Part shown: piece by piece, positions 1 through 27,365 of the stretch | How positions within the stretch are numbered: the stretch's first letter is position 1 | How the letters are laid out: each line of letters opens with the position of its first letter | DNA from: Candidatus Faecalibacterium faecigallinarum | GTDB taxonomy: Bacteria > Bacillota > Clostridia > Oscillospirales > Ruminococcaceae | Direction: 5' to 3' | DNA: 32,311 bases | Assembly (NCBI GenBank): GCA_019119685.1 | Contig: DWWN01000001.1 | Span: 1 to 32,311, forward strand | Made by a program: the position numbers and the translations under genes | The notes under the pieces: model-generated | Told to the model about the DNA's origin: nothing | What the model saw: only the letters and a program-made list of their open reading frames with translations | Databases searched by the model: none

Positions 1-4
1 CGGA

Positions 5-30
5 CGGGGGCGGGGGAGGGGGAGGGAGGA
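5..30 (+). other. G-run tract (possible G-quadruplex)
   Basis: Four guanine runs (6-10, 12-16, 18-22, 24-26) are separated by single bases, which fits the canonical G-quadruplex pattern. It lies at the very edge of the window, upstream of the small DNA-binding protein gene. No gene is visible in 1-165. Any function is unproven. Confidence 0.4.
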
Positions 31-100
31 GATTCGGGCGGTCGCGGCAGGGCTTTTGCGACGACGGATGCGGAATGTGAATTTTTTCTGAAAAGAAAAT

Positions 101-131
101 TTTGCATTTTCGAGAAATTGTCTTAAATTAG
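101..131 (+). promoter_or_regulatory. Bacteroidota-type promoter
   Basis: TTTG at 101-104 is followed after 19 bases by TAAATTAG at 124-131. This is seven of eight matches to the Bacteroidota -33/-7 consensus (TTTG, N19-ish, TAnnTTTG), and nothing like TTGACA/TATAAT is present. It would start transcription about 30 bases upstream of the ATG at 166. It supports a Bacteroidota origin for this end of the window, unlike the sigma-70-like promoters further along. Confidence 0.55.
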
Positions 132-165
132 TGGTGCAGAACTATCAACTTAAAACTCATAAGGT

Positions 166-405
166 ATGATTATCACATTTAACGAATTGCGCCGTATCAA
201 GGACAAGCTGCCCAGCGGCAGTTCGCAGCGCATTGCAGACGAACTCGGAATCGACGTGGAGACGGTCCGGAACTATTTCGGAGGCCAGCACGCATGCAAG
301 AACGGCGCGGGCGTTCATTTCGAACAGGGACCGGACGGCGGGGTGGTTACGCTCGACGATACGGCGATTCTGGATGCTGCGATGCGTATCCTGAACGAAA
401 AATAG
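166..405 (+). CDS. small HTH DNA-binding protein, Bacteroidota type
   Basis: This 79-residue protein has an N-terminal helix-turn-helix-like region (about residues 4-40: NELRRIKDKLP, then GSSQRIADELGIDVETVRNYF). A short C-terminal part ends in a helix (AILDAAMRILNEK). From memory it matches a small conserved protein of Bacteroides/Alistipes-type genomes, annotated only as DNA-binding protein. The target is unknown. A Bacteroidota-style promoter precedes it and the Shine-Dalgarno is poor, as usual in that phylum. A hairpin terminator follows at 438-467, so it is probably monocistronic. Confidence 0.7.
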   Translation: MIITFNELRRIKDKLPSGSSQRIADELGIDVETVRNYFGGQHACKNGAGVHFEQGPDGGVVTLDDTAILDAAMRILNEK

Positions 406-437
406 AACGATATACGATGCCGGTCGAACCGGTCGGA

Positions 438-467
438 CGGGCCTGCCGCAAGCGGGTCCGTTTTTTT
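438..467 (+). terminator. intrinsic terminator after the small HTH gene
   Basis: CGGGC (438-442) pairs with GTCCG (456-460) with one G-T pair. An inner CCG/CGG stem closes a CAAG loop, with a small bulge on the 5' side. Seven T residues (461-467) follow directly. Confidence 0.6.
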
Positions 468-825
468 ATGGTATTGTGCATCGGCCTCGGGGGCTTTGCA
501 TCGGCTGCCCGCCTGCGGAAATTCTGCGGGCGGATCGGCGGTATCCGGGCGGACGGGCTTTTCGGCGAGCGCGGGTGCCCCCCCCCTCCTCCGCTGCCGC
601 CGGAATCTTTCGTGTCTTTTTGGCAGAAACCGCTGCACGGACGGCCGATTCCGGCAGCCGATCTGTCAAAATGGCAGGCGATTGTCAGAAAACTCCGTTT
701 GGTACAACCTTTGTTCGTTAGACGGGCGTGTCGGACAGCTCCGGGCTGCGATGGCGGGGAGCCGGGCCGATGGAAATCAGAACGGTCGCAAAAACAGGAA
801 AACGATTAAACACATACAAAAGACT
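468..825. other. gene-free stretch upstream of dnaK
   Basis: I see no convincing gene here. The several overlapping reading frames lack ribosome sites and protein-like composition. A C-rich tract lies near 578-595. A Bacteroidota-like TTTG at 710-713, preceded by TACAACC, might mark the dnaK promoter, but its spacing does not fit the consensus well. Confidence 0.5.
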
Positions 826-2709
826 ATGGCAAAGATTATTGGTATCGACTTAGGAACTACGAACTCGTGCGTGGCGGTGATGGAAGGCTCGGAGCCCGTG
901 GTGATCCCCAACTCCGAGGGACACCGCACCACGCCCTCGATCGTGGCATTCACCGACGGCGGCGAGCGCAAGGTGGGCGACCCCGCCAAGCGTCAGGCCA
1001 TCACCAATCCGCAGCGCACGATCTTCTCGATCAAGCGTTTCATGGGCGAACCCTACGACAAGGTGGCGTCGGAGATCGCACGCGCTCCCTATAAGATCGT
1101 GCAGGGCCCCAACAATACGCCGCGCGTGGACATCGACGGCCGCCAGTACACGCCGCAGGAGATTTCGGCCATCATTCTCCAGAAGATGAAGAAGACGGCC
1201 GAGGATTACCTCGGACAGGAGGTTACGGAAGCCGTGATCACGGTGCCGGCCTACTTCTCCGATTCGCAGCGTCAGGCCACGAAGGAGGCGGGCGAGATCG
1301 CGGGTCTGAAGGTGCGCCGGATCATCAACGAGCCGACGGCCGCCGCCGTGGCCTACGGCCTGGACAACGAGGCGGCCCAGAAGATTCTGGTCTACGACCT
1401 GGGCGGCGGCACCTTCGACGTGTCCATCATCGAGATCGAGGACGGCGCGTTCACGGTGCTGGCCACCGGCGGCGACACCCGCCTGGGCGGCGACGACTTC
1501 GACGCCCGCATCGTGGACTGGCTGGTGCAGGAGTTCAAAAAGAGCGACCGCATCGACCTGAGCCGCGACCCCGCCGCCATGGGCCGGCTGAAAGAGGAGG
1601 CCGAAAAGGCCAAGAAGGAGCTTTCCAGCGCACCCTCGGCCCAGATCAACCTGCCCTTCATCGCGGTGGGCCGGGACGGCCCCCACCACATCGACGTCAC
1701 CCTGACCCGCCCCCAGTTCGAGATGATGACGGGCGATCTGCTGGCCCGCACCGTCGAGCCGGTCAACAACGCCCTGCGGGACGCCGGGCTCTCGGCGGCC
1801 GACCTGGGCCGCGTGCTGCTGGTGGGCGGCAGCACCCGTATGCCGGCGGTGGCCCGCCAGGTCAAGGAGCTGCTGGGCAAGGAGCCCAGCCACGCTTTGA
1901 ACCCCGACGAGTGCGTGGCCATGGGCGCGGCCATCCAGGGCGGCCTTCTGCAGGGGGGCGGCAAGCTGGCCGGCGCCACCGGCGCGGCGGCCCAGGGCCT
2001 GGTCCTGATGGACGTCACCCCCCTCACCCTCTCGATCGAGACGCTGGGCGGCGTCGCCACCCCCCTCATCGCCCGCAACAGCATGATCCCCACCCGCAAG
2101 AGCCAGATTTTCACCACCGCCCGCCCCATGCAGACCTCGGTGGAGATCAACGTCCTGCAGGGCGAGCGCCGCTTTGCCAAGGACAACAAGTCCCTGGGCA
2201 AGTTCAAGCTGGGAGGCATCCGGGCGGGCTTTTCCTCCAAGCCCCAGATCGAAGTCACCTTCGACATCGACGTCAACGGCGTGGTCAAGGTCTCGGCCAA
2301 GGACCTGGGCACCGGCCGGGAGCAGAACATCACCATTACCGGCTCCACCAACCTCTCGGAGAGCGAGATCCAGCGGGCCATGGCCGCCGCCGCCGCCTAC
2401 GAAGCGGAGGACAGCCGCCGCAAGGGCCGCCTCGAGCTGCACAACCAGGCCGAGATCCTGGCCTACAAGGTGGACGAGGCCCTCTCCAAGTGCAAAAAGG
2501 AGATCGACAAGGACGAGAAGAACCGCGTCAAGACCGACCTTGCCAACCTGCGCCGCTGCATCCGCAAGGACCACCCCGAAAAGATGAACGACGCCGAGGA
2601 ATCCGCCCTCCGCGCCGCCAAAGAGACGCTGGAAGCCAGCGCCAGCCACCTGATGGTCCTCTACACCCAGCAGACCGGCACAGACAGCACGGACGGGGAG
2701 ACGCTTTGA
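826..2709 (+). CDS. dnaK: chaperone DnaK (Hsp70), hybrid of two lineages
   Basis: This is a complete 627-residue Hsp70: an ATPase domain (about 1-380), a substrate-binding domain, and a helical lid. Seen motifs are [11 protein letters not shown] at the N terminus, [10 protein letters not shown] near 191-200 and the VGGSTRMP phosphate-binding stretch. The start is the ATG at 826; in-frame ATGs further upstream belong to a non-coding-like stretch. Residues 1 to about 170 are Bacteroidota-like. They include the extra segment around 76-101 that Gram-negative DnaKs carry and Gram-positive ones lack, and they often use ACG for Thr. From about residue 180 the sequence is Firmicutes-like ([10 protein letters not shown], then [17 protein letters not shown]) with mostly ACC. 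No grpE or dnaJ lies nearby. The gene product call is certain; whether this gene exists as one piece in any cell is doubtful. Confidence 0.8.
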
Positions 2710-8956: not shown

Positions 8957-10231
8957 TCAGACTTTGTCCAGGGCCTGGGCGATGTCGGCGATCAGGTCCT
9001 CGCTGGACTCCAGCCCGCAGCTCATGCGGACCAGCTCGGCGGGCACGCCGGCGGCCTTGAGCTGCTCGTCGTTCATCTGGCGGTGGGTGCTGGAAGCCGG
9101 GTTGAGGCAGCAGGTGCGGGCGTCGGCCACGTGGGTCTCGATGGCGGCCAGCCGCAGCGACTTCATAAAGGCGCTGGCGGCTTCGCGGCCGCCGGCCAGG
9201 CCGAAGGACACCACGCCGCAGCTGCCGTTCGGCAGGTACTTCTGGGCCAGGGCGTGGTAGGGGCTGGATTCCAGCCCGCAGTAGTCCACATAGGCCACCT
9301 TGGGGTGCTTTTCGAGGAAGCGGGCCACGGCCAGGGCGTTTTCGCAGTGGCGGGCCATACGGACATGGAGGCTCTCCAGGCCCAGGTTGAGGATAAAGGC
9401 GTTCTGCGGGGACTGGCAGCAGCCGAAGTCCCGCATCAGCTGGGCGGTGGCCTTGGTGATGAAGGCCCCGCCCTGGCCGAACCGCTCGGCGTAGGTGATG
9501 CCGTGGTAGCTCTCGTCGGGGGTGGTCAGGCCGGGGAACTTGTCGGCGTGGGCCATCCAGTCAAAGTTGCCGCTGTCCACGATGGCGCCGCCCACACCCG
9601 CGCCGTGGCCGTCCATATACTTGGTGGTGGAGTGGGTGACGATGTCGGCGCCCCACTCGATGGGCCGGCAGTTGACCGGGGTGGGGAAGGTGTTGTCCAC
9701 GATCAGGGGCACGCCGTGGGCGTGGGCCGCCTTGGCAAACTTTTCAATGTCCAGCACGGTGAGGGCGGGGTTGGCGATGGTCTCGCCGAACACGGCCTTG
9801 GTGTTGGGGCGGAAAGCGGCGTCCAGCTCTTCCTCGGTGGCGGTGGGGGAGACGAAGGTGACGTCGATGCCCATTTTGGCCATCGTGACCGAGATCAGGT
9901 TGAAGGTGCCGCCGTAGATGGTGGAGGAGGAGACGATGTGGTCCCCGCACTGGCAGATGTTGAACAGGGCCAGGAAGTTGGCGGCCTGCCCGCTGGAAGT
10001 CAGCATGGCGGCGGTGCCCCCTTCCAGGGCCGCGATCTTGCGGGCCACGGCGTCGCAGGTGGGGTTCTGCAGGCGGGAATAGAAGTAGCCGTCGGCCTCC
10101 AGGTCGAACAGCTTGCCCATGTCCTCGCTGGTGTCGTACTTAAAGGTGGTGGACTGGATGATGGGGATCTGGCGGGGCTCGCCGTTGCCGGGCGTGTAGC
10201 CGCCCTGTACGCAGATGGTATCGCGGTTCAT
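8957..10231 (-). CDS. metY: O-acetylhomoserine sulfhydrylase
   Basis: This 424-residue PLP enzyme of the Cys/Met metabolism family uses O-acetylhomoserine and sulfide to make homocysteine. Features seen are the N-terminal QGGYTPGNGEPRQIPIIQSTTF, YSRLQNPT and the phosphate-binding SSGQAA. Asp and the NTFPTP stretch precede the PLP Lys204 in HSTTKYMDGHG. The long insert (about 424 residues rather than ~390) separates MetY from cystathionine synthases and lyases. I place the start at 10231 because AAAGGAG lies 8 bases upstream; an in-frame ATG at 10249 lies before that site. It sits between the methionine transporter and metA. Confidence 0.93.
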   Translation of the reverse strand: MNRDTICVQGGYTPGNGEPRQIPIIQSTTFKYDTSEDMGKLFDLEADGYFYSRLQNPTCDAVARKIAALEGGTAAMLTSSGQAANFLALFNICQCGDHIVSSSTIYGGTFNLISVTMAKMGIDVTFVSPTATEEELDAAFRPNTKAVFGETIANPALTVLDIEKFAKAAHAHGVPLIVDNTFPTPVNCRPIEWGADIVTHSTTKYMDGHGAGVGGAIVDSGNFDWMAHADKFPGLTTPDESYHGITYAERFGQGGAFITKATAQLMRDFGCCQSPQNAFILNLGLESLHVRMARHCENALAVARFLEKHPKVAYVDYCGLESSPYHALAQKYLPNGSCGVVSFGLAGGREAASAFMKSLRLAAIETHVADARTCCLNPASSTHRQMNDEQLKAAGVPAELVRMSCGLESSEDLIADIAQALDKV

Positions 10232-18894: not shown

Positions 18895-19460
18895 CCCTGC
18901 AGATCGAAAACCTGGCCAAGCGCTTCGGTGCGCACACTCTCTTTGAAGGGCTGAGCCTGACGGTAGAGGCCCCGGCGGTCCTCTGGGCCCCCAGCGGCTG
19001 GGGCAAGACCACCCTGCTGCGCATCCTGATGGGGCTGGAAAAGCCCGACGCCGGCGCTGTGACCGGCGCGGGGCGGGTGGCCGCCGTCTTTCAGGAGGAC
19101 AGGCTCTGCCCCCAGCTCTCGGCCGTGGAAAACGTCCTGCTGGTCCTGCCCGACGGCAAAGCCCGGCGCGGGGCGGTGGAGGCCGATTTCGCCCGTCTGG
19201 GCATGACAGGGGAGGCCCTCGCCCTGCCGGCGGCCCGGCTTTCGGGCGGGCAGAAGCGCCGTGCCGCCCTGCTGCGGGCGGTGTGGGCCAAAGCGGACAC
19301 CCGCTTGTTCGACGAGCCCTTCACCGGCCTGGACCCCGTATCCATGGGGCAGGCGGCCGCCCTGCTGAAAGAGCGGTGCGCCGGCAAGCCTGCCCTGCTG
19401 GCCACCCACGACCGCGCCGCCATCGAGGCCCTGGGCTGGCCGGTGATCGAGCTGGGGTAG
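18891..19460 (+). CDS. short NitT/TauT-type ABC transporter ATPase
   Basis: This ATPase has 189 residues against about 250 in the usual family. It keeps a P-loop (APSGWGKTT, with Ala where the first Gly is usual), the Q-loop FQEDRLCP, signature LSGGQKRRAALLRA, Walker B TRLFDEPFTGLD and a switch His in ATHD. It ends soon after the switch. The shortening comes from trimmed loops and a missing C-terminal tail, so it may be a compact but working version. It overlaps the permease by 4 bases and is followed by a terminator at 19535. Confidence 0.88.
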   Translation: MTLQIENLAKRFGAHTLFEGLSLTVEAPAVLWAPSGWGKTTLLRILMGLEKPDAGAVTGAGRVAAVFQEDRLCPQLSAVENVLLVLPDGKARRGAVEADFARLGMTGEALALPAARLSGGQKRRAALLRAVWAKADTRLFDEPFTGLDPVSMGQAAALLKERCAGKPALLATHDRAAIEALGWPVIELG

Positions 19461-19534
19461 ATCAGCTCCTGCTCCGCAGGTGACTGGAAGGAGACAAAAT
19501 ATACATTTCCGGCTTATCCGCAAAAATGTTGCAG

Positions 19535-19567
19535 AGCGTCCCGAAAACGGGGCGCTTTTCTTTTTGC
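19535..19567 (+). terminator. terminator of the NitT/TauT-type operon
   Basis: AGCGTCCCG (19535-19543) pairs with CGGGGCGCT (19548-19556) through one G-T pair around an AAAA loop, followed by TTTCTTTTT. Confidence 0.8.
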
Positions 19568-19760
19568 TCCCCTCTCAGGCGCTGCGCGCCATTCCCTCTT
19601 GCGCTTAGCCGATTTTTGCGGCGCGCCGCGGCGGGCGCTTGCAAAAACCGGAGCGCTGCGCCAGTTTCGCCTCCCTGTTTCGTCCGCTGGACGCGGTCGG
19701 CTCAACTGCCCCCGCGGGGGAGCAGCCTTGCCCCTTACAGGAAAAGAGAGGCGCAGAAAA
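19566..19760. repeat. palindromic intergenic repeat, copy 4 (long form, inverted core)
   Basis: The copy begins CCCCTCTCAGGCGCTGCGCGCC and ends in a GAAAAGAGAGG stretch. It holds the same ~90-base core as the copy at 3084-3335 but in reverse orientation. CGCTTGCAAAAACCGGAGC here is the reverse complement of the matching part there. It fills most of 19461-19799, where I see no gene. Confidence 0.7.
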
Positions 19761-19799
19761 AGCCCGCAGGGCGTCCCCTGCGGGCGGTATGGGCAAGCG

Positions 19800-20180
19800 T
19801 TATGCCAGGAAGGTAAACCAGACAAAGGAGGCGGCCACGGCCAGCATCATCAAGATCAGTGCGCCGTTGGCAAACCCTTTCGTCACCGATGTTTCACAGT
19901 GTTCAAACAGCAATAGTTTGCGGCGGTCGTCAAGGATTTCCTGGTCCACAAAGCCGTTCATCTTCTGCCAGGCAATGTCGTGACCGTTCAAAAGGAACCA
20001 ATCCTGTAAAAGATTTTAAAAAATGACGGCGGCAAACATAAAGGAAAAGATCCATAGTTCATTCCATTGAAGATTGTTTACAGCCTCTTTAAATCCAGCT
20101 GGCCTCAGTGCAGCTACGCTGCTAACATACAGCACTGTATTCAGAAAATGGTTCGTCAATGGACCTTTTTTCAATTCCAT
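19800..20180 (-). pseudogene. small membrane protein gene with in-frame TAA
   Basis: One frame of 127 codons is interrupted by a single TAA at 20016-20018. The 5' half (54 codons, ATG at 20180, 9 bases after AAAGGAG) is hydrophobic, with NTVLYVSSVAAL and ELWIFSFMFAAVIF. The 3' half reads in the same frame. It has a charged stretch (QEILDDRRKLLLFEHCETS) and then a C-terminal TM helix (ALILMMLAVAASFVWFTF). The joined protein looks like a three-TM small membrane protein; the D-x-R-R then A-rich helix layout recalls DUF2178-like proteins, only loosely. A TTG at 19991 could restart the second half. Base composition is much less GC-rich than its neighbours, suggesting acquisition. It may be decayed, read through, or two small genes. 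Confidence 0.5.
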
Positions 20181-20312
20181 CAGTTACGACTCCTTTCTTT
20201 CAGCACAGAAGATACAAACGGATTCTCAAAGTGAAACGGTGGACGAACATACGGCCAAAGCTCACCTCCCGTCAAGCGTGAAGAATAAGAGTCATTCGGC
20301 GGCCGTTGATTG

Positions 20313-20333
20313 TATACTTGTATTACAAGTATA
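20313..20333. promoter_or_regulatory. perfect 21-bp dyad, likely repressor operator
   Basis: TATACTTGTA (20313-20322), one central base, TACAAGTATA (20324-20333) form two perfect 10-base arms. It begins at the last base of a -10 box on the minus strand and covers the expected start point. A dimeric repressor of GntR/YtrA or similar type would fit. No such regulator is encoded in the window. Confidence 0.65.
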
Positions 20334-20361
20334 TTATAACGCATCGCTGTTTCGTTGTACA
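20333..20361 (-). promoter_or_regulatory. promoter of the small membrane-protein unit
   Basis: On the minus strand TGTACA (20361-20356), 17 bases, then a perfect TATAAT (20338-20333). It reads toward the broken small membrane gene, about 145 bases downstream. Between them one frame (LTGGELWPYVRPPF.., ending at TGA in 20180-20182) overlaps that gene's ATG by one base. It could be a remnant or a short leader gene. Confidence 0.6.
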
Positions 20362-20502
20362 TACACAATTTTCGCATGCTTTTAACACAATTTTATACTG
20401 CTTGCACAAAACACCCCGTTCGGGAGAGTTTGGAAGGACAAAGCTGCAAAAAAGTTTGCCTTACCACAAAGTTTGCCTATGTCCACGGGCGTACACTTGG
20501 CT

Positions 20503-20690
20503 CTCCCTCCGGGAGAGCTGGCACAGGGTGCGTAAGCGCCCTGTGACTGAGAGGGGAGCAAAAGGGCGCGCTTGCCCTCTCCGGCCCTGCGGGCCACCTC
20601 CCCCGTAAACGTGGGAGGCCGAGCCTAAAGGTTACGTTTTGGCTCCCACGCGTGCGGGGGAGCTGTCGAGCGGAGCGAGACTGAGAGGGT
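20503..20690. repeat. palindromic intergenic repeat, copy 5
   Basis: Modules seen are GGCTCTCCCTCCGGGAGAGCTGGCACAG, CTGTGACTGAGAGGGGAGC, CCGGCCCTGCGGGCCACCTCCCCC, GTAAACGTGGGAGG and CTCCCACGCGTGCGGGGGAGCTG, ending ACTGAGAGGG. The long gap 20181-20744 otherwise holds the promoter and dyad above and an AT-rich stretch (about 20391-20480) with an 11-base direct repeat AAAGTTTGCCT. I see no convincing gene there. Confidence 0.75.
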
Positions 20691-20693
20691 ATG

Positions 20694-20740
20694 AAAACGG
20701 CTCCTTCTGCTGAAAACATCCAGCAAAAGGGGCCGTTTTT
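20694..20740. terminator. terminator of hemW, likely bidirectional
   Basis: AAAACGGCTCCTT pairs with AAGGGGCCGTTTT through one mismatch around a loop that itself contains CTGCTG/CAGC. T runs flank it on plus (TTTTT), and on minus the AAAA arm gives TTTT. It lies just beyond the hemW stop. Confidence 0.7.
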
Positions 20741-20744
20741 CGCG

Positions 20745-27181: not shown

Positions 27182-27188
27182 GCGGGCT

Positions 27189-27365
27189 CTAGGGGGAACC
27201 CATTTCTGCCTGCTGCGCAGGACAGAAATTCCTTCCCCCTAGTATTCCCCTGGGGACAAAATTTGCCGCAGAACCGTGCACTCGCCGCAAGGCGGCTCGC
27301 ACACTCTCTGCGGTAAATTTCCCTGTATGTGTCCGGCCTGTACGCACATGTCGTCCAGGCCGGAC
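27189..27365 (+). other. three consecutive stem-loops between uxaB and uxaA
   Basis: Loop 1: CTAGGGGGAA (27189-27198), ATTTCTG and CCTG pair with CAGG, CAGAAAT and TTCCCCCTAG (ending 27242), 21 pairs in all. Loop 2: AAATTT-G-CCGCAGA (27259-27272) pairs with TCTGCGG-T-AAATTT (27307-27320) and encloses GTGC/GCAC and CGCC/GGCG around GCAA. Loop 3: GTCCGGCCTG (27331-27340) pairs perfectly with CAGGCCGGAC (27356-27365). None is followed by a T run. They fill most of the 228-base gap and are probably RNA structures that set processing or stability. No known RNA family is recognised. Confidence 0.65.

Follow-up and report, generated by a model that had tools for sequence, protein, structure and literature searches.

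The question raised by this locus is whether the dnaK gene at the left end of contig DWWN01000001.1 (Candidatus Faecalibacterium faecigallinarum, assembly GCA_019119685.1) is a natural gene of mixed ancestry or a product of assembly. The window (the whole stretch analysed, 32,311 nucleotides) begins with Alistipes DNA, which is joined inside dnaK to the dnaK of an unrelated bacterium. The contig is, with high confidence, an inter-species assembly chimera. The coordinates of the features are listed in Table 1.

Table 1. Features of the window, with positions counted from its first base.
Feature	Position	Strand	Remarks
Foreign stretch, Alistipes DNA	1..1346	+	Bases 15-1346 align; 1-14 lie outside the local alignment
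79-aa Alistipes gene, upstream of dnaK	166..405	+	100% identity to L049 5001-5237
5' part, Alistipes dnaK, with Gram-negative-type insert	826..1346	+	Codes for residues 1-173; ends after the second base of codon 174
Crossover zone	1321..1346	+	Bases exactly alike in the Alistipes L049 dnaK and the same-genus dnaK of G010
3' part, the genome's own second dnaK paralogue	1347..2709	+	430/454 residues (174-627) identical to the G001 dnaK
Native flanking DNA from the window's own genome	2710..32311	.	Blocks collinear with G006:C26, mostly also with G001:C45

The source of the left end was sought by scanning genome contigs with the 79-aa gene. A relative is encoded in 286 stretches, of which the best 80 were taken, and the top one (100% identity) belongs to Alistipes sp. 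CHKCI003 (NZ_FCNT01000065.1, locus L049). According to PMC4882955, this strain comes from chicken caeca. Over window positions 15-1346, 1325 of the 1331 aligned bases are identical to L049 in three blocks; the mismatches are at 17, 40, 477, 523, 577 and 637, and the run from 638 to 1346 (709 bases) is exact. The foreign stretch matches one place in the CHKCI003 genome, at 99%, and no other match to window 1-1000 was found in the window's own genome. The next Alistipes locus by bit score among the matches listed (L051) reaches 73.9% identity over 1545 bases; by identity, the best of the other Alistipes loci among the 60 matches listed is L058, with 80.4% over 560 bases. Since these loci fall far below L049, the source is the species of CHKCI003 or a very near one. 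No match was found between window 1-1400 and phages, or between window 826-1320 and plasmids. The 79-aa gene had been described in the initial annotation as a Bacteroidota small DNA-binding protein gene; its Alistipes origin is confirmed by the full identity to L049, whereas the DNA-binding role is only putative, no Pfam or NCBIfam family being matched at E 0.001. A promoter-like motif was seen by eye within the Alistipes-identical DNA (TTTG at 101-104, a 19-base spacer and TAAATTAG at 124-131). It is presumably of the Bacteroidota type, with one mismatch to the consensus.

The two parts of the encoded protein also differ in their relatives. DnaK residues 1-173 are identical to those of L049 (173/173), whose dnaK is intact (642 aa); whereas only 219 of the 454 residues from 174 to 627 are identical. 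The likeness to CHKCI003 thus extends over 0.8 kb of upstream DNA and residues 1-173, but the sequences diverge from base 1347. The Gram-negative-type insert reported earlier is present, and the SIKR-QEISA spacer of 39 residues equals that of L049. This spacer has 17 residues in 23 of 29 same-genus loci (L016-L044) and 39 in none measured; the remaining six gave no measurement because of a cut gene, an internal stop or a miss by the regular expression. The second dnaK paralogue of the genus (e.g. G001:C45, G010:C40 and G025:C192) therefore differs from the hybrid in that the insert is absent (23/23 measured) and the native 5' half is kept. The shift in threonine codons holds as well: ACG and ACC account for 10 and 3 of the 14 codons in residues 1-173, against 6 and 23 of the 30 in the remainder, residues 174-627; the two parts differ in their use of ACG versus ACC (Fisher p = 0.0013). 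ACG makes up 29 of the 39 threonine codons in the L049 dnaK.

The 3' part belongs to the genus of the window's own genome. Residues 174-627 share 418-430 of 454 positions with six same-genus dnaK loci, and only 238 of 454 with the genome's own other dnaK (C24). Against the eight other genomes of the genus that score best, the 3' part has 92-95% amino acid identity. Each of the 31 genus genomes searched, that of the window among them, contains a match to the dnaK 3' half, and in 29 of these the best match reaches at least 79% over at least 430 of 441 residues; the matching genes of G022 and G026 are partial. Moreover, the gene order downstream is common to the window and the second-dnaK loci of G001, G006 and G023. 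A single closest relative for both halves would have spoken against the initial reading; instead, residues 1-173 are closest to Alistipes L049 and residues 174-627 to G001, and the two sides of the join come from different species-level sources. As a separate observation, the second dnaK in the single-contig genome G014 (G014:C1:2163910-2165223, L032) carries one TAA inside the matched stretch.

The switch, previously placed at 1310-1390 and described as one from Bacteroidota to Firmicutes character, could be located more narrowly. The first differences from L049 are at 1347 and 1348, and past 1347 the identity falls abruptly to about 70-85% of aligned bases per 50-base bin. Among seven same-genus loci, the exact match spanning 1346 that reaches furthest left is that of G010 (1321-1346, 26 bases); the match of G001 starts at 1339. 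Since the window equals L049 up to 1346 and matches G010 from 1321, the crossover lies within about 1321-1346. The 26-base word is that common to L049 and G010; the native bases of the window's genome (G000) at this place are absent from its contig C37, described below, and indistinguishable on C65, the window contig.

The native 5' half of the gene was found elsewhere in the same assembly. Contig C37 (5968 bases) ends in an insert-free dnaK 5' part, which reaches the equivalent of window 1290, where 92 foreign bases take over. The native sequence from 1291 to the join, about 30 to 56 bases, was found on neither C37 nor the window contig. C37 probably derives from the same strain as the window, since the two were binned together and resemble G006 to a like degree (C37 at 90% identity, the window's two longest blocks at 90-93%). 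In G001 and G023, C37 (93/94-5455) and the native dnaK and downstream DNA of the window are collinear around one dnaK (606 and 605 aa, respectively). The same collinearity is seen in G025 (dnaK of 602 aa), where the stretch taken covers C37 93-4085 and the window DNA to 3602. The native order is accordingly C37, dnaK and window 2710 onwards. The C37 genes also lie 5' of dnaK in G002 and G015, with gaps; the window DNA beyond dnaK is unmatched in the stretches taken from these two genomes. The different sources of the two halves, the native 5' half left on C37 and the intact syntenic genes in relatives all support the earlier preference for an assembly chimera over a recombinant gene.

We infer that the join was made during assembly and not in the cell. 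The assembler might have passed from the native dnaK 3' half to the Alistipes dnaK via identical bases in the codons of the conserved motif INEPTAAA, and would then have run on through 1.3 kb of Alistipes DNA until the contig stopped; the native 5' half would have remained at the end of another contig, C37. A short-k-mer misjoin at the 26-base word common to G010 and Alistipes is a plausible route, and a short-k-mer de Bruijn assembler can cross a shared word of such length. The window's genome appears to be a metagenome bin, as indicated by its 71 contigs and 84.93% completeness. Inter-species chimeric contigs occur in metagenome assembly; the present case resembles them in that its join falls within conserved sequence, the native half was left on a different contig and related assemblies have the same gene broken, and it shows nothing out of the ordinary.

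This breakage was seen in 3 of the 31 genomes, namely G000, G004 and G006, in which the second dnaK is broken or misjoined at residues about 155-174. This part of dnaK is therefore a spot of repeated breakage or misjoining among the genomes searched. The G004 gene is split, with C21 stopping at the equivalent of 1315 and C5 at 1342. In G006 the gene lies on two contigs, C16 and C26. The dnaK sequence of C16 breaks off at about 1305 and gives way to 65 unrelated bases; that of C26 extends upstream as far as 1264, but its tip, up to about 1387, is a poorer match to the family than the remainder and may come from another dnaK. The alignment of such foreign contig tips is forced, and is meaningless past the breakpoints. 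Both G006 tips look chimeric (L131 about 10096-10220 for C26; L132 11239-11303 for C16). The second dnaK of G022 and G026 is broken elsewhere in the gene, and the other dnaK of G018 is cut off by a contig end at residue 159.

A real recombinant, in which the recipient took up Alistipes DNA carrying the dnaK 5' half and this became joined within its second dnaK, is highly improbable. It would agree with the reading frame, which stays open across the join, and with the product, which gives a full-length Hsp70 match and lies above the cut-offs of two NCBIfam DnaK equivalogs (NF001413 and TIGR02350); however, any crossover between aligned homologues yields an open frame anyway. The native 5' half and its own upstream flank still persist in the assembly, which makes a real recombinant unlikely and argues against simple replacement: if C37 is correctly binned, the recipient kept its 5' half. 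The foreign DNA, the Alistipes upstream DNA included, also runs unbroken to the contig end, with recipient DNA seen on its right side and no left boundary. In addition, the junction 42-mer was found in only 1 of the 31 genus genomes, the window's own, and was absent from the 30 others searched.

It is very unlikely, too, that a real insertion disrupted the native dnaK, with its edge in the 92-base tip of C37, and that a separate misjoin occurred on C65. The non-dnaK bases past the equivalent of 1290 could be read in this way; but the tip resembles the interior of an unrelated open reading frame in G217 and not a recognised mobile-element end, and the G006 contigs C16 and C26 bear odd tips too, at nearby but different positions. 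The tip occurs in 3 of 197 family genomes, the own one included, and the other two matches are partial (83% over 54 bases in G217; 82% over 39 bases). It is present once in its own genome, as itself. It has no match in plasmids and phages, and an exact pattern of a 23-base piece was not found in viral contigs. The tip was thus rejected as a mobile-element end. Its sequence (L008 1-92, G000:C37, + strand) is VDQVMDYALDLHNFHEYSHMAHLFPLLVCTE; the G217 frame that it resembles by eye is 622 aa long (L140) and contains a Walker-A-like GVPGAGKT.

Very improbable, too, is a genuine inter-phylum recombination in which a 5' fragment from Alistipes entered an additional copy of the recipient's second dnaK. 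The hybrid dnaK is almost certainly an assembly artefact rather than a real feature, and holds no new biology. Its record could mislead, because it might be mistaken for a case of gene transfer between phyla, or might disturb phylogenies based on the DnaK insert.

No second species switch was seen in the window. Its part from 12400 to 32311 matches six same-genus genomes in long blocks, collinear with G006:C26 among the matches listed, and 19456-20731 is without a long block among these matches. At about 19449-20742, some 1.3 kb separates blocks whose spacing in G006, G016, G021 and G023 is only about 20-35 bases, which looks like an insertion in the window or a loss in these genomes. The segment contains a low-G+C bin (20001-20500, 0.416) and a dispersed repeat (19568-19888). 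Another dispersed repeat of about 170-180 bases, at 27186-27365, has at least dozens of same-genus matches (81-91%), several of which, among the matches listed, lie at G006 contig starts.
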